From a bacterium (GTDB taxonomy: Bacteria; JAMOTN01): DNA of 43,893 bases. This document shows, piece after piece, positions 34,639 to 43,893 of the stretch (the first letter of the stretch is position 1; the number at the start of each line of letters is the position of its first letter). The position numbers and the translations under genes are program-made. Location of the stretch: positions 1 to 43,893 of the forward strand of contig JAMOTN010000029.1 of the NCBI GenBank assembly GCA_027062325.1. Direction: 5' to 3'. The notes under the pieces are model-generated. The model had not been told where the DNA came from. It did not search any database and saw nothing but the letters and a program-made list of their open reading frames with translations.

Positions 34639-34959
34639 ATGAAAATATCCCTTTATGAATTTATAGAGAAGTTATTCAACTCAGAATTCAAACTCACTGT
34701 CGTATTCAAAGGTGAAAACGAAGAAAACACCTATTACGCTTTCGTTCACAACAGAAAAAATATACTCATACCCGTTACCAAACTTCCAAAATTATTTGTC
34801 GAAGCTTTCGAATATTTCTTAGAATTTAGAGGACTTGAAGAACCACCAAATCCAATTTTAGACCTAGCCGATTACTTTCAATTCGTAGTAGAAGAATTCA
34901 AAATAAAAAATGTCCCAATTTACGCAGAGATGCAGCTCATCTATCCCGACAAAACGTAA
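34639..34959 (+). CDS. Small acidic protein of unknown function
   Basis: The 106-aa product is not recognised. It has a mixed alpha/beta composition: ISLYEFIEKLFNSEFKLTVVF, a strand pair TYYAFVHNRKNILIPV, and helices KLFVEAFEYFLEF and DLADYFQFVVEEFK, the first read in parts. It has no signal peptide, cysteine or catalytic pattern. The ATG follows AAGGGGGTGG. The 3' end overlaps the Lon-SAVED gene tail to tail by 23 bases with no terminator between, so transcripts would collide. It is probably in an operon with the four-cysteine protein. Confidence 0.6.
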   Translation: MKISLYEFIEKLFNSEFKLTVVFKGENEENTYYAFVHNRKNILIPVTKLPKLFVEAFEYFLEFRGLEEPPNPILDLADYFQFVVEEFKIKNVPIYAEMQLIYPDKT

Positions 34960-36175
34960 GAACAATCTCGTACTTATCATTGCTACTAACATAGTTCAAG
35001 AGGTGAACCACTAATTCTGTCTTATATTTTACCATTAAAGCACTATTTACCCCGTGCAACTCTTTCCACAAACCAGCAACAAACCATCCACCTAAGTATA
35101 CTGCACCATCAACTCCAAGCATCAAATGAACAGTTTGCACTCTATTATTTCCTAAAATGCCTTTTATTAATTCACTCAATTCGTTAAAATACTTTGGAAA
35201 ATTTTTCAGGCAGCTTTCATGTAAAGCATCGCCACTTTCAAACCTGTAAATTTTCACATTTTCCTCTGGAAAACCATCTGGTGGGACATAAGCATTCATA
35301 CCTACCTTCTTATCACCATCTCCCCCAAAATAAACCCCAACAGGCTTTTTTTGTACTATACTAGGGTTAACACTCTTTCTCTCTTTTGACCTTAAAAGAA
35401 TAAACAACTCGTTCCTTTCAAACTTAACTAAAAATTTACCTATCCACTCCAACAAAAAATTCAATTTGACCCCTTTTCTCACTGTCCATTCATAAGTTTT
35501 TGTAAAATAAGTTAAAAGCGAAATGAATCTTCTTTCTTCTATTTTTCTACATTCAGGCAACTTTTTTAACAACTCAGCTTTCTTCTCATCGTGAGCTCTC
35601 TTCAAATACCCATCCTTTAAAACCCCTGTAAAGGCAAACTCTTCTAAATCTTCTCTTACTTCCAAACCTAAATTCTCAAAAATCGCAGAAACAAATCCTA
35701 TCAAAAATGCCAAATTCCATGACATACCTGTCAGTATCTTATGCAAACCAATATCAGTCAATTCAAATCCTAAAATCAACTCCATTTCTAACTCTTCAAA
35801 ATAATTGCTTTTTAAAACATCTATCCAAACCCTCTTATATCCCTTTTCCCTAAATAAAACTTTCTCCAATTCATCTCTTAACTTTTCCAGACCTCCCTCA
35901 AGCTCTTTTAACCATGAAAGTTTCTCTTTTCCTACATTAATTTTTTCTAAAATTCGCCCCAACTCTTTCTTATTGGCAACATTAAAAACCCATATCTTGT
36001 AAATATCCAACTCTTCATCCACAATTACTGGAAAATTCACCTTAGTAATACAGTTAGTCTCTAAAAAATCTATAAAATCTGCCCTCTCAGCTTTAAGTTT
36101 CCACAAACCGCCATTTTTAATCTTACCAGTAGTAAAATCACATTTCCATTCAAGGAAAATTAATCCACGTTCCAT
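34937..36175 (-). CDS. calpL: CalpL-like CRISPR-associated Lon-SAVED protease
   Basis: The 412-aa product shows two recognisable parts. Residues ~105-215 fit a Lon (S16) protease domain. GMSWNLAFLIGFVSAI around S152 matches the Lon GPSAGLAF nucleophile turn, and EFAFTGVLKDGYLKRAHDEKKAELL matches TGE...G...V...K..AA with K198 or K199 as catalytic lysine (quoted parts FAFTGVLKDGYL and HDEKKAEL). Residues ~275-412 fit a SAVED sensor: VGVYFGGDGD, then RVQTVHLMLGVDGAVYLGGW, the usual iHLFlA.P.alA..lG strand-helix. Known CalpL binds cyclic tetra-adenylate made by Cas10, oligomerises and cuts CalpT. It is last in the four-gene cassette, 19 bases after the MazF-like gene. Neither domain has been checked by profile search, but both patterns plus the neighbours agree. 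Confidence 0.72.
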   Translation of the reverse strand: MERGLIFLEWKCDFTTGKIKNGGLWKLKAERADFIDFLETNCITKVNFPVIVDEELDIYKIWVFNVANKKELGRILEKINVGKEKLSWLKELEGGLEKLRDELEKVLFREKGYKRVWIDVLKSNYFEELEMELILGFELTDIGLHKILTGMSWNLAFLIGFVSAIFENLGLEVREDLEEFAFTGVLKDGYLKRAHDEKKAELLKKLPECRKIEERRFISLLTYFTKTYEWTVRKGVKLNFLLEWIGKFLVKFERNELFILLRSKERKSVNPSIVQKKPVGVYFGGDGDKKVGMNAYVPPDGFPEENVKIYRFESGDALHESCLKNFPKYFNELSELIKGILGNNRVQTVHLMLGVDGAVYLGGWFVAGLWKELHGVNSALMVKYKTELVVHLLNYVSSNDKYEIVLTFCRDR

Positions 36176-36194
36176 CTCTATACCTCATAAATCC

Positions 36195-37226
36195 CTATAC
36201 TTCTTCAATATCAATCACAACTTCCCCTGCCTTCATAAGAGCAAACATAACTTTTAGTTCTTCTCCTTTTTGGGCATCTCCTTTATTATCTAAAATCAAT
36301 GGTAACATATCAATCTCAAACTCTAATTCATCTCTTTGATTATTCCTCTTGTTAATAAAAACCAACTTATATTTTCTTCCTCTCTCAAGTTTTTCCATAA
36401 CTTCGTCTAATATATCAATAAACAAACTAACCTTTTCTTTATACTCAACTAATTTAACCATCACCTTTTCAAATTTTTTAACTTTTTCTGGTCCTTCTGC
36501 AGCAGCCGCTAACACTATCCGTTCCTGTGGAGGACATAAGTAACTCTTTAAAACTTCATAAACTTTATTTAATACAATAACTTGAGCAGATTTACCCGAT
36601 AAAACAACCTGCTCTTTTTTTTTAACATCTGCAATTTCTAATAATTCGTCGAAATACACCAATTTCCAATTTATTTCAGCTAAGATTGATCTAACTTCTA
36701 ACCGAAAGTCTCCTTTTTTAAGGTACGGTATGCCCCGAGACAGAATAAAATGTTTTAGATCTACTGATAAAATTAAATTTGAAGCTTCTCCAACTCCTGT
36801 TAATTTTTTTATTACTTCCGCCACCTCTTCAGGAACATAAGAAACTAAATAGCAAATTTTCCTTATCGAATTCAAACTTAACGTGCAGACAGCATCTGTA
36901 AATACTGCCCACACTCCTCCTTTCATATCTCTTACCACCCAATCCTGCATATCCGCAAGAATGTGATATTTACTCACAAGCACCACATCTGCCATTTCTC
37001 CATCTTCATCTAATATCAAAATCCCAAAATCCTCAGCCCCCTCGAATACATATAAATCTCCTTCCGAAAAAATTACTGGATAATTTTTCTTCTCCTTCTC
37101 ATTTAACACTTCTAAATATTTTCCTTCAAACATTTCTTTCAAACTTCGTGCTTTTTCTAATATTTCCTCCTCATTATATTTTCCTAATATTTCCTCAACC
37201 TTTCTCTTTAATGCTTCCAACTTCAT
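36195..37226 (-). CDS. calpT: CalpT-like protein with MazF-like domain (putative anti-sigma target of the protease)
   Basis: This 343-aa protein has a helical N-terminus (about 1-45). The second zone resembles MazF/PemK: EGDLYVFEGAEDFGILILDE near 54-73 for the opening strand, and VFTDAVCTLSLNSIRKICYL followed by VPEEVAEVIKKL near 108-142 for the MazF ending (DqirT.s..rl..k.g.ls.ee..ev...L). The remaining 200 residues are mixed helices and strands, with a helical stretch KKFEKVMVKLVEYKEKVSLF. In the characterised pathway, CalpT combines a MazF-like part with a segment that holds the sigma factor inactive until CalpL cuts it. Here the gene lies between the sigma-like and protease genes, exactly as that role requires. 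No MazF toxin residues are claimed. Confidence 0.6.
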   Translation of the reverse strand: MKLEALKRKVEEILGKYNEEEILEKARSLKEMFEGKYLEVLNEKEKKNYPVIFSEGDLYVFEGAEDFGILILDEDGEMADVVLVSKYHILADMQDWVVRDMKGGVWAVFTDAVCTLSLNSIRKICYLVSYVPEEVAEVIKKLTGVGEASNLILSVDLKHFILSRGIPYLKKGDFRLEVRSILAEINWKLVYFDELLEIADVKKKEQVVLSGKSAQVIVLNKVYEVLKSYLCPPQERIVLAAAAEGPEKVKKFEKVMVKLVEYKEKVSLFIDILDEVMEKLERGRKYKLVFINKRNNQRDELEFEIDMLPLILDNKGDAQKGEELKVMFALMKAGEVVIDIEEV

Positions 37227-37281
37227 CGCTGACCCCTCCCTGCTTAGTAGTTTGTCTTAAAGCTTCTCCATTTTGTAGGAC

Positions 37282-38127
37282 CTATGTAACTACCTTCTTG
37301 TGACAAAACAATTTTTTAATTTTTTCCCAGCACAACTTCGCACTTTCAAACTCCAACTTATCTAACTCTTCTTTGGCAATTTCTTGCATCTCCTCACTAC
37401 ACAAATACAAAGCAATTAAACATTCCTCGACTACTTCAGATAATTCTTCTTCTGCTAAGAAAAACTCTTTCCATTCTTCTTCAACAGTTTTCCAAAACTC
37501 CTTTAACTTTTTCTCAGCTCTTGACTTCTGCTTTCTAGCAACCGCAGGCATAGAAAATTTATAAATTTCTCTGCACTCATCAACAACACTGTGAATACCT
37601 CTCACAATATTTTTTAACATCGTCCAAAACATTCCTACCAATTCAGCAGGAGTAAAATTTAGGAACTTTTTCATCTCTTCAATAAATGCTTCATAGTAAT
37701 CAAGCTGAGGAATAGAAAACTTCTTATTCAAATTCTCTAATTTCTCAATATCCAACTTTTCATTATCATCCAAACTATCAATCTGTAGCTGATACTTTTT
37801 CTTCTCTTCTTCCAAATAGCTTGACCAACTATGAATAACAGTGGTTTTGAAATAATTATAATATTTACCCCACTCTCCAGATTTCGGATCAAATGCCAAG
37901 GTTTTATTTTTCATTGCTTTCTCAATTTTATGCAAGTACTTATCAATAAAATCCTCTATTATTAAGAATGGCAAATCTGGAAATTTTTTTCTGATAATTT
38001 TAACCATAATTTTTTCAACACTATTTTGCAACTCTGCTACTGCCTTCAGACTAACACCAGCATTTTCATCATGCAAAATCCTAAAATAATAGTAGAGTAC
38101 ATGAGCCGGAGTTTCCTTCCTATTCAC
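37282..38127 (-). CDS. calpS: CalpS-like sigma-70 family (ECF-type) factor
   Basis: This protein of about 281 aa looks like a two-domain sigma factor with a long C-terminal helical extension. Region 2 is suggested by LIIEDFIDKYLHKIEKAM, then AFDPKSGEWGKYYNYFKTTV and IHSWSSYLEEEKKK, parallel to the ECF pattern (D..qe.fl.........FDp..G.f..wl..ia.n...d.lR). Region 4 ends in FSMPAVARKQKSRAEKKLKEF, the familiar SxxTVKSRLxRARKKLRE recognition helix (quoted as MPAVARKQKSRAEKKL). I choose the GTG at 38127, eight bases after AAGGAG. The GTG at 38136 overlaps that site. If correct, release of this factor would redirect RNA polymerase after phage sensing. The promoter it reads is unknown. Confidence 0.6.
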   Translation of the reverse strand: MNRKETPAHVLYYYFRILHDENAGVSLKAVAELQNSVEKIMVKIIRKKFPDLPFLIIEDFIDKYLHKIEKAMKNKTLAFDPKSGEWGKYYNYFKTTVIHSWSSYLEEEKKKYQLQIDSLDDNEKLDIEKLENLNKKFSIPQLDYYEAFIEEMKKFLNFTPAELVGMFWTMLKNIVRGIHSVVDECREIYKFSMPAVARKQKSRAEKKLKEFWKTVEEEWKEFFLAEEELSEVVEECLIALYLCSEEMQEIAKEELDKLEFESAKLCWEKIKKLFCHKKVVT

Positions 38128-38155
38128 TGTAATCACTCCTTCAAAATAGTACTAT

Positions 38156-38827
38156 TTATTCAACAGCTAAAACTCTCTCAATAAACTTCAAAGCTTCCCT
38201 TCTCCCTCCAAACATTTTTATCAAATCAACTCCATGTTTTCTCGCGCATTCTCTAAATACGCTTTCACTTTTTCTAATATAATTCCAATATCTACTATTC
38301 AAGTAAATTTTCCTCACCCTTTTCTTTTTAGGATTAATTCCTATGTAACTAGCATTTTCCATCAAATACTCCCTACATTCTCCCTCAATACTAACCATAT
38401 CCCATTTAACAGATAAAAGATCAATTTTCAAATTTTTTACTCCTAGAAATTTAGGATAACTTGTAAGAAACAGTAATCGCTCTCCTTTTAAAAACCTCCA
38501 CCTTAAAACTGGTCGCCTGTCTTTATTCCCTAACCATCTCTCTACAACCTCTCTCAACTCTTGAGGCAAATTTTTATCAAACCTCCAGAAAATCTTATTT
38601 TTCAAATACCCAAACGTCACTGTTGAATTTTTCTCAACAATTCTAATAATCTCATCATCTGACATCTTTTTCTTAAACTTAAACTTTCTCCTATTCCTAA
38701 ATTTAACATTCCTTTTATTCTTACTTCTCTTAGTAGTTTCTCCATCCTCACTATCGCCACTTGAGCTAAAAATAAAATAACCAGCCGCCATTAACATCCC
38801 CAAAATTACTCCACCTAAACCGTTCAT
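38156..38827 (-). CDS. Membrane-anchored basic protein, first gene of the Calp-like cassette
   Basis: I do not recognise this 223-aa protein. A single N-terminal membrane helix (LGGVILGMLMAAGYFIF, about residues 4-20) is followed by an acidic spacer and a very basic stretch (KRSKNKRNVKFRNRRKFKFK). The globular part of ~165 residues is rich in Arg, Lys, Trp and Tyr (VLRWRFLKGERLLFLTSYPK, IYLNSRYWNYIRKSESVF). The strong positive charge suggests contact with nucleic acid or lipid headgroups. GGGGGGA precedes the ATG. It is followed at 28 bases by the sigma-like gene, so it is co-transcribed with it. It is not part of the published three-gene pathway and may be an added membrane component. Confidence 0.65.
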   Translation of the reverse strand: MNGLGGVILGMLMAAGYFIFSSSGDSEDGETTKRSKNKRNVKFRNRRKFKFKKKMSDDEIIRIVEKNSTVTFGYLKNKIFWRFDKNLPQELREVVERWLGNKDRRPVLRWRFLKGERLLFLTSYPKFLGVKNLKIDLLSVKWDMVSIEGECREYLMENASYIGINPKKKRVRKIYLNSRYWNYIRKSESVFRECARKHGVDLIKMFGGRREALKFIERVLAVE

Positions 38828-39037: not shown

Positions 39038-39361
39038 CTACGCAATAATACCAGAAAACTTATTCTTAAAGTAATTCTCAACTTTCCTTAAATTTGCCTT
39101 AACTTTATTCAACACTTTGTCTTCAACAGATGTTATAAACAAATTGTCATCCTCATCCAATATTTTCTCAAGCTCTTTTAACACCTTATCAAGTTGCCTC
39201 TTTGACAAGTAACATGCAAACACACTGAACTGAACATCAACACCATACCTTCTAAGTAACTCCAAAATTTTTCTATCCTTTTTAGAATACCTAGTCCTAT
39301 CTTTCGCTCTAATATCATAAGATATGATGTAAATCTTTTTAGAAACCGTCATACATATCAC
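39038..39361 (-). CDS. cas2: Cas2, divergent second copy
   Basis: This 107-aa ferredoxin-like Cas2 is the non-catalytic dimer that bridges two Cas1 dimers during spacer integration. The first strand YIISYDI with its conserved Asp, the ELLRRYGVDVQFSVFACYL helix-strand and the LITSVED-like ending (read FITSVED) are typical. A basic C-terminal tail (VKANLRKVENYFKNKF) is longer than usual. A GTG start with AGAGG close ahead, or an ATG three codons later, are both possible. It lies downstream of the 473-aa gene and is clearly different in sequence from the Cas2 at 40890-41153, so it is not a recent duplicate. Confidence 0.85.
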   Translation of the reverse strand: MICMTVSKKIYIISYDIRAKDRTRYSKKDRKILELLRRYGVDVQFSVFACYLSKRQLDKVLKELEKILDEDDNLFITSVEDKVLNKVKANLRKVENYFKNKFSGIIA

Positions 39362-39423: not shown

Positions 39424-40845
39424 TCACTTTAACACTTCAAGCACATCCTTGTACAAACGCTTCAACTCATTACTCCTATAGTAAAAACCTGCTAAATTAA
39501 GCAAAACGTTCCCAGGAACAACGTAACTAACAAACCAATTAATAAAACTTTTGATCTGACCATTTAAAATTATCCTATAAGAAAACACCTCATCATCTAT
39601 CCAGTTCACTAATTCCTGAGCAAACGAAGAGAAAGTTTTGCTCCCCAACTCTTCCGCCAAGAAAAAGTTTGCTTCCCACAAACTTGAATCACCCTCACTC
39701 CACGAAGGAACATCTAAAAATCTAAATGCCACCATTAAAGCCAAATACTCCAACAAATCATCTCTAAACTCTGTATCCTTTAGCATCTGCTCTATAAATC
39801 CCACAACCAAGATTAGCAATGAAAAGTAAGCAAATCCAAACATATCAAATGCATTAACGTGGAAAAACCAAAGTTCTTTTTTACTCATATCATCGTAATG
39901 ACTCTGTCTAACAACACGTTTAATTTCGTTAACAAATCCTCTTAAAAATCTGTTAATTCCATAAGCCGAAAAAGTACCATTTCCAAGTGTATCCAGCTCC
40001 CCCAAAAACCATTCCAACTCATGTCTAACTTTCAACTCCCACTTAAATAACCCTATCAAATCAGAGCTCTTGTTTAGAGAATGCCTAAAAACTTTATTGT
40101 AACCTCCCCAACTGAACACCTCATCGGAAAACGCAGTATAACACCTACCAATCAACTTTTTATATTCATACTTATATTCATCAAGTATCCTCAACATCTG
40201 CTCTTCAGCAGGAGATAAATTGTGCTTCCCCCTTAAGAACTCGTAAAACGGCTTTCTGTAGTTCGCCCACCACTGCTTACGTATTCTCTCTTTCTCCTTA
40301 GCCCTGCCTCTCTTATCCAAAACCTTTTTCAACTCTCCATAGCTCATTTCATTCCACGTAACTTTAGCAACAATACTCTTTACCCGCCTCAAAAAAGTAT
40401 CAACTTTTTTTCTCATAGGTGTTACTGCCTCAGTCAAACTTCTGAACAAATCCGCTATATTTGGAGTTTTTAATCTATCAAGCATAAACATGTAATTTAA
40501 GCAATCAAAATTCACACAGTAGTTGTAAAACTCCCTCGCCAAATCAACGTTCTGCTTCAAAAAAGCATTTTTTAACTCTTCACGTTCTCTGCTGCTCACC
40601 CTCCTACTAATAGGAGTTACACGCTTAAATAATCCCAAGCAATTTCCAGCAAATTCCCACCTAGCATCAACTTCCCAAAAAACATCATCCGTCAGCCTAA
40701 ATTTATACTTTCCATCATCTCTTTTAACCAATAAACGTTCTATTTGCGGCACTACAATTTTGACAGTTCGAGGTTTAGTTCTTTTCTTACGATTTATAAG
40801 AACTCCAGCAACTTTTCCTAGAAACTCCAATATTCCCATTCTCAT
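39424..40845 (-). CDS. Unrecognised 473-aa protein lodged between two cas2 genes
   Basis: I recognise no Cas family here. The protein begins with a short amphipathic stretch (MGILEFLGKVAGVLIN) and a strongly basic segment (RKKRTKPRTVK). It is then largely helical, rich in Trp, Phe, Tyr and Arg: SSREREELKNAFLKQNVDLA, RIRKQWWANYRKPFYEFLRG, KELWFFHVNAFDMFGF. A hydrophobic helix (FAYFSLLILVVGFIEQML) lies near residue 350. I see no HD, GGDD, RuvC, HNH, PD-ExK or helicase signature, no RAMP glycine loop, and no reverse-transcriptase motif. It is transcribed with cas1 and cas2, 44 bases after the first cas2. Its place inside the adaptation genes suggests a helper of spacer capture or processing. Confidence 0.7.
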   Translation of the reverse strand: MRMGILEFLGKVAGVLINRKKRTKPRTVKIVVPQIERLLVKRDDGKYKFRLTDDVFWEVDARWEFAGNCLGLFKRVTPISRRVSSREREELKNAFLKQNVDLAREFYNYCVNFDCLNYMFMLDRLKTPNIADLFRSLTEAVTPMRKKVDTFLRRVKSIVAKVTWNEMSYGELKKVLDKRGRAKEKERIRKQWWANYRKPFYEFLRGKHNLSPAEEQMLRILDEYKYEYKKLIGRCYTAFSDEVFSWGGYNKVFRHSLNKSSDLIGLFKWELKVRHELEWFLGELDTLGNGTFSAYGINRFLRGFVNEIKRVVRQSHYDDMSKKELWFFHVNAFDMFGFAYFSLLILVVGFIEQMLKDTEFRDDLLEYLALMVAFRFLDVPSWSEGDSSLWEANFFLAEELGSKTFSSFAQELVNWIDDEVFSYRIILNGQIKSFINWFVSYVVPGNVLLNLAGFYYRSNELKRLYKDVLEVLK

Positions 40846-40889: not shown

Positions 40890-41153
40890 TTAAACTATCA
40901 TCCATCTAAAAAATTTTCTATTTCCCAAATAAATTCGCCCCTTGCAATCATTATCAGTTTGGGGAATAAAAAGCAACCTATCCCCTTTATTCAAAAGCTG
41001 AGAACAATCCCAATACAAATCATTCACTTTCTTAAAAGGGATTTCTATTTCAAAAATACTGTATTGAATCCTACAACCGTATTTTAAGAGCAAAGCAGAA
41101 ATTTTCCTCCTAATTTTATCATCTGAAATATCAAAAGCCACTAACCACTTCAT
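40890..41153 (-). CDS. cas2: Cas2, canonical
   Basis: This 87-aa Cas2 has the first strand WLVAFDISDDKIRRKISALL containing the conserved Asp8, the LLKYGCRIQYSIFEIEI block and a late GDRLLFIPQ strand. These match Cas2 closely. AAAGGAG lies nine bases before the ATG, and the gene is 34 bases behind cas1. With Cas1 it forms the integrase that inserts spacers. Confidence 0.93.
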   Translation of the reverse strand: MKWLVAFDISDDKIRRKISALLLKYGCRIQYSIFEIEIPFKKVNDLYWDCSQLLNKGDRLLFIPQTDNDCKGRIYLGNRKFFRWMIV

Positions 41154-41187: not shown

Positions 41188-42795
41188 TTAACCATTAACT
41201 TTTCTCTCTCCAAACTTTCTCAATGCTTTTTCAAAGGAGCTTATATCCTCCTTCAAAAATCTCTCCACAATTCTCAATAATCTAAACTCAAACCATTCAG
41301 AAACTACTCGCACCACCAATGAAAAATCCAGATCAAATCTTTCCTTATTCAACAACGCCCTAAGAATTCTTTCAAATTCATCTTCCTCTCTATTCTTCTG
41401 GCCATCCTCTTCGCCATCCTCGGCAGCAACATCTTTAATTACCTGCAATCTCCTAAGCTCTTCCAACAAACTTACCCATATATTATATCTCAAACTTTCC
41501 AACAAACTCTCCAACTTCTCATCCTTGCCATAAAGTGCCGTGTTCAATTCTTTATATTTACTCCTAAAAGGATGCTTTACCTCTTCTGTCCATTCCAAAT
41601 AAAGCTTTAAAATTGAACTCAATACATCAGAATCTCCCAAATCCCCATCTTCCTCACAAGCCTCATTGATAGCAATATCATTTTTAGAACAAGATTCACT
41701 ATTAGAGTTACAATTGCGTCTTTCATTTTTTTCATTATTGCCTACATTTTTACCAGCATCCGTAAATCCTTTCAAAAATCTTTCTAAGTCACCCCTTTTA
41801 TCATCCAAAAACCTATTAAAAACAACGGTATCAAAAACCACATGTTTTATGAGTAGCACACGCACTCTTTCCATAATATCCGACGCTAAAGCATAGTGTC
41901 TCCCCCTCTTTATGTGCATCACACCGAGTGAGGGATTGAAATTTTTTATCAAGAGTATGCAAGTTGTAAGGTTGTATATGAGAGTATATGCATAATTAAA
42001 GAATAGATTTAAGAAATCATTTGACTTCCTGTCACGCCTTTTAAACGCCGGATCCAAACCAAAAGTTCCTAACACATTCTTCATCAAATCAAACATGAAT
42101 ACACTAGCTCTTCCTTCATAACCCCTTAGAGTATTAATCTGCGAATCCAAGACATTTACATAAGTTTCCAGATTCCTAGCTATCCTCTTTTTATAGCTGC
42201 CTAACTCTTTCAAAAAATCATGCAGTCGCTTTTTGGTATTTTTCAACCAATTTAACAATCTAAGTCCATTATATTCACTATCAGCCTCCCCATTCTCATC
42301 AGTCCAGTTTCCATGTTCCGTCTTCACTTTCAAAAACAGTAGTTCTGTTAGCTCAAAAAGACTTACCATTTCCTGAATTTTGTCACGCACTATCTTAATA
42401 ATAAAATTTAATCTCCAGGGTGAGTTAGTCAATAACATTTGAAGTTCTCGTAATTTGTAAGCACTAAAGTAAGAAGACGGTAAAATAACCGACTTTATAC
42501 TCAAATTTCTTCCTACAATTATTACTTTTTTCTCATAGTTCGCTAATAATCCTAAAGCTTGCGTTGTTAATTGAACATTCTGTGAAACTATAAGGTAATC
42601 AATTGCAGCTATTGGAATTTGAATTTTTTCAGGATAAGAACGAGCATCACTAACTCCGCCAATATCAATTTTTTTGCTAATTCCTCCTGTAGAAACAGTA
42701 AGATTAGTAGAAGTTAGTGATGTAAGAACAGAAAAAGGCCGAAACAATAAACTTCCCTTCTCTACTCTCAACTTACCGGGTTTAAGGATTATCAT
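41188..42795 (-). CDS. cas1: Cas1 integrase with large insertion and C-terminal extension
   Basis: This 535-aa Cas1 is far longer than the usual 300-350 aa. The beta-rich N-terminal part (IPIAAIDYLIVSQNVQLTTQ) and helical catalytic part are present with the metal ligands E227 (RGYEGRAS), H294 (GVMHIKRGRH) and E309 (SDIMERVR), spaced 67 and 15 residues as in typical Cas1. The FLNLFFNYAYTLIYN helix is also clear. A Lys/Glu-rich helical insertion lies near 140-215. Beyond about residue 330 there are ~200 extra residues with two low-complexity linkers (NNEKNERRNCNSNSESCS and EDGEEDGQKNREEDE) separating helical blocks. The family usually ends soon after the last ligand helix. No reverse transcriptase motifs are seen in the extension. 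The gene starts the cas operon and has no ribosome site (see 42803-42808). Confidence 0.92.
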   Translation of the reverse strand: MIILKPGKLRVEKGSLLFRPFSVLTSLTSTNLTVSTGGISKKIDIGGVSDARSYPEKIQIPIAAIDYLIVSQNVQLTTQALGLLANYEKKVIIVGRNLSIKSVILPSSYFSAYKLRELQMLLTNSPWRLNFIIKIVRDKIQEMVSLFELTELLFLKVKTEHGNWTDENGEADSEYNGLRLLNWLKNTKKRLHDFLKELGSYKKRIARNLETYVNVLDSQINTLRGYEGRASVFMFDLMKNVLGTFGLDPAFKRRDRKSNDFLNLFFNYAYTLIYNLTTCILLIKNFNPSLGVMHIKRGRHYALASDIMERVRVLLIKHVVFDTVVFNRFLDDKRGDLERFLKGFTDAGKNVGNNEKNERRNCNSNSESCSKNDIAINEACEEDGDLGDSDVLSSILKLYLEWTEEVKHPFRSKYKELNTALYGKDEKLESLLESLRYNIWVSLLEELRRLQVIKDVAAEDGEEDGQKNREEDEFERILRALLNKERFDLDFSLVVRVVSEWFEFRLLRIVERFLKEDISSFEKALRKFGERKVNG

Positions 42796-43223: not shown

Positions 43224-43893
43224 GTTTCATTGCCGAACACTTACTAACGGATTACGACATATATCGCCCTCGTAGAGGGCTACGGAAATTCTCACAGTTT
43301 CATTGCCGAACACTTACTAACGGATTACGACCGAGTTCCCCTCGCTTCGGGTGTCCCCCCTTTGGGTTTCATTGCCGAACACTTACTAACGGATTACGAC
43401 AAACTAAACACTCTAGGTTTTACGGCAAAAGCATTTGTGTTTCATTGCCGAACACTTACTAACGGATTACGACGGGCTCGGGCGGGGTCCCGGGGCTTTT
43501 GCCCCCGCGCGGTTTCATTGCCGAACACTTACTAACGGATTACGACCCCCGACGCCCCAGTTGGGGGTGTTGGGGGCTCGTCGGTTTCATTGCCGAACAC
43601 TTACTAACGGATTACGACCGGTTTCCTTTTTTATGTTCCCTTTTGCAGCTGTGAGAGCCCGGGCCCCGCACCCGAGCTCCCATACGACCGGTTTCCTTTT
43701 TTATGTTCCCTTTTGCAGTTTCTGTTTCATTGCCGAACACTTACTAACGGATTACGACGAGTCTTCGACTCCCTTATTTATTTATAATGAAAAGTTTCAT
43801 TGCCGAACACTTACTAACGGATTACGACGTGAGGTCGCGGCCGCGGTCCTCAGGCCTAAGCCTGAGTTTCATTGCCGAACACTTACTAACGGA
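43224..43893 (-). CRISPR. CRISPR array, eight full repeats plus one cut by the edge
   Basis: Identical 35-base repeats begin GTTTCATTGCCG and end CGGATTACGAC. They start at 43224, 43297, 43366, 43439, 43512, 43584, 43724, 43794 and 43866 (the last partial, 28 bases). Spacers are 34-38 bases, except the interval 43619-43723, which is 105 bases and contains a rearrangement. Read on the minus strand the repeat ends in AATGAAAC, a form of the ATTGAAAC tag typical of crRNA 5' handles. I therefore infer that the crRNA is transcribed right to left and that the leader lies beyond the window. The array is next to cas1 and probably belongs to it. The type cannot be fixed without the effector genes. Confidence 0.97.

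Follow-up and report, generated by a model that had tools for sequence, protein, structure and literature searches.

The Calp systems, as described in the literature covered here, which leaves out the founding Calp papers, consist of three proteins, the protease CalpL, its target CalpT and the sigma factor CalpS, and their output is transcriptional. Two of these systems are represented by protein structures, the system of Sulfurihydrogenibium sp. YO3AOP1 with the crystallised protease 7QDA (PMC11417357), and that of Candidatus Cloacimonas acidaminovorans with the protease CCaCalpL (9EYI, 9EYJ and 9EYK). The present analysis deals with a related cassette of four genes, located in a stretch of 43,893 nucleotides (positions 1 to 43,893 of contig JAMOTN010000029.1, assembly GCA_027062325.1, a bacterium of the GTDB lineage JAMOTN01) that will be referred to as the window. 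The cassette represents a novel, divergent form of Calp, in which the genes for S, T and L, assigned with unequal strength to the three known components, are preceded by a gene of a fourth family, X.

The four genes quite probably make up a Calp operon, X-S-T-L, that has diverged strongly and operates as follows. Upon recognition of viral RNA, a type III-A complex encoded on another contig of the genome (C25) would synthesize cyclic oligoadenylate, judging from the GGDD motif of its Cas10. This messenger would then activate L, whose Lon domain and catalytic serine are seen, and whose short CARF-like domain would bind the ligand. L would in turn cut the MazF-like anti-sigma factor T and free S for a transcriptional response, as can be proposed from the characterised homologues (PMC11417357, PMC12751052). 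X would be an RNase-type effector kept in check within the module, T being the best candidate for the restraint, and would be released when T is cut; in the window organism, it would be tethered to the membrane.

The first-pass annotation of this DNA, made from the sequence alone, had reported four closely spaced minus-strand genes next to cas genes, and the open reading frames, the cas2 and cas1 genes upstream and the gaps of 19 (X-S), 55 (S-T) and 19 bases (T-L) are all confirmed. The S gene may be read from a GTG at 38136, and another GTG at 38127, with a better Shine-Dalgarno sequence, is probably its start, which would widen the X-S gap to 28 bases. When the four window proteins were compared with Pfam, PADLOC and NCBIfam, the sigma factor, MazF and Lon readings all went undetected, and sequence searches of the PDB, made with the two largest cassette proteins, gave no usable match. 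The window protease had no direct relative among 386 genomes, nor among plasmids, phages and the contigs of IMG/VR and GTDB, and a close relative of the source genome was absent among the 386 genomes searched. Since the standard libraries are silent on the four proteins, their identity was testable only via profiles of genuine Calp proteins.

A reference set of Calp operons was assembled from a SAVED search of the 386 genomes, which provided five Lon-SAVED proteins used as seeds, and from a scan of GTDB contigs with a second CalpL alignment, which gave three loci, two Desulfurellales loci being added to the set. A search of one phylum revealed CalpL in 65 of 136 genomes. The protein of locus L111 is the Sulfurihydrogenibium CalpL 7QDA (full-length match), and locus L055 encodes the Cloacimonas protein 9EYI. 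The neighbourhoods of the CalpL loci were taken to build iterative profiles for the four families X, S, T and L, and the operon rebuilt from about 60 relatives reads X-calpS-calpT-calpL on a single strand. In 48 of the 53 operons with enough sequence, that of 7QDA included, X lies directly upstream of calpS, with an overlap of a few bases in most operons. The operons devoid of X before S are L055 and L057 (Cloacimonas-type), L058 (a Myxococcota contig), L059 (genome G095) and L151.

These profiles, built without window sequences, were run against a test set of 78 proteins of the source genome, and shuffles preserving local composition served as null for the scores. The T product is recognised with 33.9 bits (E 8.7e-11), first of the 78 and far above a runner-up at 2.8 bits, with an hhalign probability of 85% and none of 2000 shuffles as good, which strongly supports its membership of the CalpT family and bears out the MazF-like protein proposed for this gene. 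The T family aligns with MazF (E 0.002) without the catalytic arginine, and, by analogy, T may be regarded as a MazF-like putative anti-sigma factor. The S product comes first among the 78 proteins by hhalign only (E 0.013), its signal being swamped by its own composition; with the composition correction off, the match is colinear over profile positions 31-219 and again ranks first, equalled by 20 of 2000 shuffles. The sigma-70-like gene of the first-pass annotation thus keeps its first rank by hhalign together with a weak score, and S is weakly assigned as an ECF-type (extracytoplasmic function) sigma factor. The L profile places the L product first of the 78 both by hmmsearch (E 0.0019) and by hhalign (1.8e-4), and it was beaten by one of 1814 shuffles. 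Without composition correction the whole protein falls to third rank, and the assignment of L is therefore based on its Lon domain, which taken alone reaches 8.6e-5 by hhalign and is beaten by none of 77 proteins and none of 100 shuffles. Ser152, the catalytic serine of CalpL, is invariant in an alignment of 54 sequences and kept in window L, Gly184 is invariant too, and Lys198 is the probable catalytic lysine of window L by spacing only. The X profile retrieves the product of the fourth gene with 15.1 bits (E 6e-5), first of the 78 with a runner-up at 3.8 bits and none of 1995 shuffles as good; BLAST of window X against one X homologue gave no link, the family profile alone joining them. S, T and L are adjacent on the same strand in the standard Calp order, the assignment of S itself being weak. 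Since the X-S-T-L order matches that of the relatives and each open reading frame ranks first in its genome for the expected family, the divergent Calp cassette already suspected, fourth gene included, is upheld.

The X proteins belong to no relevant Pfam or NCBIfam family. Sixteen of the 47 match the PADLOC entry C3a162, labelled 'unknown function' (best E 2.3e-60), and the family is therefore already catalogued, but unexplained, in PADLOC. An AlphaFold2 (AF2) model built on the 47 sequences, with a predicted local distance difference test (pLDDT) score of 91, was compared with the PDB, and all 50 matches listed were MazF/Kid/CcdB-type toxins (Z 5.8-7.6). An independent profile test was made because the structural Z scores lie below 8 and Foldseek alone, with no match at E < 0.6, is not significant. 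The X profile aligned with 31 PemK/MazF proteins from genomes at E 4e-4 over the whole length, setting the Arg-Pro and Thr/Ser of X on the Arg-Pro and Thr of MazF. The catalytic residues of MazF are Arg25 and Thr48 in Bacillus (PMC7354611); in X, the Arg-Pro is invariant and the Thr/Ser is kept in 47 of 47 members. X is predicted to possess a MazF fold, and the Calp operon would encode two MazF-fold proteins, X with the catalytic arginine and T without it. Two tandem X genes occur upstream of calpS in some operons (L127:5554-6491 and L137:5159-6096).

The window copy itself does not match C3a162. It keeps the MazF-like core (Arg105-Pro106 and Thr122) and two of the four cysteines conserved in the family, and is termed X-like because the other two are missing. 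The first-pass annotation had seen in this gene a membrane-anchored basic protein and an undescribed fourth component. The former description holds, residues 3-21 being hydrophobic (Kyte-Doolittle mean 1.76) and followed by a basic linker, in a protein with 51 Lys and Arg against 26 Asp and Glu. As to the latter, X is indeed part of the operon, but it is no local novelty; the idea of a fourth gene private to this genome is ruled out by the X genes that head the operons of the relatives, and only the membrane segment is unusual. Of 48 other X proteins, two exceed the crude hydrophobicity threshold applied to such an N-terminal segment, and the membrane anchor therefore looks like a local change that probably tethers X to the membrane in the window organism.

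The co-occurrence check suggested along with the first-pass annotation was run for X and CalpL across the 136 genomes, with both found in 53, X only in five, CalpL only in 12 and neither in 66, a strong association. In four of the five X-only genomes the operon is severed by contig ends and the fifth holds an X fragment, so that X living apart from Calp is ruled out. This fragment (L185:4992-5240), in the single-contig genome G414, has neither S nor T nor L in its vicinity and is perhaps what is left of a decayed Calp operon. Several points weigh against the proposed reading. The counts are not independent, as the Calp relatives mostly come from related genomes of one phylum; the four conserved cysteines lie outside the MazF catalytic pair and are not a MazF feature, and window X has lost two of them; and the Cloacimonas operon of the characterised CalpL, together with its phylum, is without X, a single spurious match being found across 118 genomes of Cloacimonadota. 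X is therefore dispensable for the protease and ring-nuclease activities.

Since X keeps the catalytic Arg and Thr/Ser of MazF while T has lost the arginine, X is most likely an RNase-type effector. A bolder version, proposed tentatively and rather doubtful, makes X the true toxin of the module: an active RNase of the MazF family, which its degenerate relative T would neutralise by pairing with it. A single cut would then free both the sigma factor and the RNase, the latter at the membrane in the window organism. It is a real possibility, short of probable, that X is catalytically silent and acts as a structural partner, either as an additional anti-sigma subunit or as a MazF-like factor for assembly that would hold S together with T, the output of Calp being then purely transcriptional. 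T itself is an example of a MazF fold put to new use as an anti-sigma factor, the overlap between X and calpS suggests a coupled production of X and S, and the extra cysteines suggest an added structural role. However, a structural protein need not keep the arginine and the Thr/Ser at the MazF catalytic positions, as all 47 X proteins do while T has lost the arginine.

As to the source of the signal, the first-pass annotation had noted that Cas10 was not visible, and a Cas10 missing from the genome is now ruled out, as genes of type III-A are found together on contig C25: csm3, csm2, a probable csm5, cas6, cas10, csm4 and a further csm3-like gene. This Cas10 (L016:13999-16263) possesses a GGDD motif at residue 526 and no HD pair, and signalling is therefore expected as a main output. 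A CARF-HEPN gene of the Csx1/Csm6-like type, with an RNSLAH motif, occurs near the end of contig C76 (L018:13833-15365); because this contig end carries the CRISPR repeat of the window, the gene probably lies beyond the window array. CalpL is usually accompanied by an RNase of this kind (PMC12751052).

The sensor half of L is the less certain part of the protease. An AF2 model of window L has a mean pLDDT of 60, with values of about 70-89 at residues of about 30-110 and 146-210 and over most of 320-412. Structure comparison matches residues 41-254 to domains of the Lon type (Z 8.4 for ComM, 6-7 for Lon proteases) and residues 253-412 to Rossmann-like domains, with CCaCalpL 9eyk at Z 5.5 and Cap5 and Cap14 at 5.4, beta-carbonic anhydrases scoring equal to the CARF/SAVED domains. 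CalpL 7QDA superimposes on the model with Z 6.1 over 252 residues and a root-mean-square deviation of 14.8, and the arrangement of the domains therefore differs. In our reading, window L would combine a Lon protease with a CARF-like sensor of reduced length, and cyclic oligoadenylate sensing is plausible for it. The Lon-SAVED protein of the first-pass annotation is thus retained for its Lon half, the SAVED half being left with a weak structural match. Other observations weigh against this reading. In sequence, window L has no significant match to either SAVED half; the ring-nuclease motif Ser391-His392 (SHNP) is not visible in a region where the alignment is unreliable; confidence in the model is moderate at the C-terminus and poor at residues 234-320; the model was built on an alignment of CalpL homologues and may favour their fold; and Foldseek found no significant match for it.

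In line with these observations, the cassette might be derived from Calp with a protease that has lost the sensing of cyclic oligoadenylate and whose reduced C-terminal domain answers another signal or a protein partner. Besides the undetectable SAVED halves, the C-terminal part of about 177 residues, compared with about 265 in CalpL, and an N-terminal domain of CalpL no longer recognisable by sequence would fit this explanation. It is considered unlikely, as the model of residues 253-412 does match CARF/SAVED-type domains, even though the beta-carbonic anhydrases score the same, and the cassette stands beside a CRISPR array in a genome with a Cas10 carrying the cyclase motif. Finally, four unrelated CRISPR-neighbourhood genes with chance resemblances, as the silent standard libraries and the weakness of S and of the sensor half might suggest, are very improbable and largely refuted by the four first ranks at matching positions, the E value of T and the shuffles surpassed by T, X and the Lon domain.

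Some CalpL proteins of other operons are longer, about 563-593 residues (L147:3885-5600, L148:1655-3358, L149:7929-9620, L150:6936-8717 and L151:7860-9569), and in the four scanned (L147, L149, L150 and L151) the C-terminus is a STIV B116-like domain (PF08960, E values from 1e-19 to 5e-24), interpreted here as the ring-nuclease family AcrIII-1/Crn2. A Csx1-Crn2 fusion is known, and by analogy a fusion of Lon-SAVED with a ring nuclease would limit its own activity; no published description of such a fusion was found.

Table 1. Features of the window in and around the X-S-T-L cassette.
Feature	Coordinates	Strand	Details
calpX-like gene (family X = PADLOC C3a162)	38156..38827	-	223 aa; open reading frame and X profile
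calpS-like gene, putative divergent ECF-type sigma factor	37282..38136	-	weak hhalign match; position between X and T
calpT-like gene, putative degenerate MazF-fold anti-sigma factor, presumed protease target	36195..37226	-	343 aa; T profile
calpL-like gene, Lon-type protease, predicted short Rossmann/CARF-like C-terminal domain	34937..36175	-	412 aa; L profile, AF2
cas2, just upstream of the cassette	39038..39361	-	Pfam CRISPR_Cas2 E 2.6e-15
473-aa gene between the two cas2 genes	39424..40845	-	matches no Pfam, PADLOC or NCBIfam family
second cas2	40890..41153	-	Pfam CRISPR_Cas2 E 1.4e-16
cas1, 535 aa, long acidic C-terminal extension	41188..42795	-	Pfam Cas_Cas1 E 1.7e-28
CRISPR array, 35-base repeat, interrupted by the contig end	43224..43893	+	

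The cas2 gene nearest to the cassette ends 210 bases upstream of it, and the 473-residue protein encoded between the two cas2 genes displays one strong hydrophobic stretch. Inside several spacers of the array occur G+C-rich palindromes, e.g., GAGTCTTCGACTC and CTCAGGCCTAAGCCTGAG. Identical 36-base copies are located at 43613 and 43683, and an unrelated G+C-rich sequence stands between them, where a repeat is expected.

With respect to published Calp accounts, X represents a concrete candidate for a second output. In the phylum richest in Calp, it precedes calpS in nearly every operon, the locus of the crystal structure among them, and its role is testable with existing proteins. No description of X as a MazF-like protein, or of its position at the head of the Calp operon, was found in the literature covered, from which the founding Calp papers are missing. 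The window cassette shows how far Calp may diverge, in a lineage without close relatives, and still be recognisable through gene order and profiles.

Among the characterised systems, the Calp of Sulfurihydrogenibium sp. YO3AOP1 (7QDA; PMC11417357; L111) shares with the window the S-T-L order on one strand, a Lon protease with Ser152, a MazF-fold T and an X gene directly upstream of S. In contrast, window L lacks a recognisable N-terminal domain and a two-part SAVED, window T is longer (343 vs 271 residues), window S is barely recognisable, window X carries a membrane segment, and the genes of the type III-A complex lie on another contig. The CCaCalpL system of Candidatus Cloacimonas acidaminovorans (9EYI/9EYJ/9EYK; L055) shares the S-T-L core but its operon has no X, and none was convincing in the 118 genomes of its phylum. 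The MazF/PemK toxins (PF02452) share with X the predicted fold and the aligned catalytic Arg and Thr, which makes X a candidate sequence-specific RNase; X differs from them by falling below detection by the Pfam family, by its four extra conserved cysteines, and by being encoded with a sigma and a putative anti-sigma factor instead of a recognised MazE-type antitoxin. PADLOC C3a162 corresponds to the same family as X, but as a library entry devoid of fold, function or role in an operon, whereas X takes its place here at the head of Calp.

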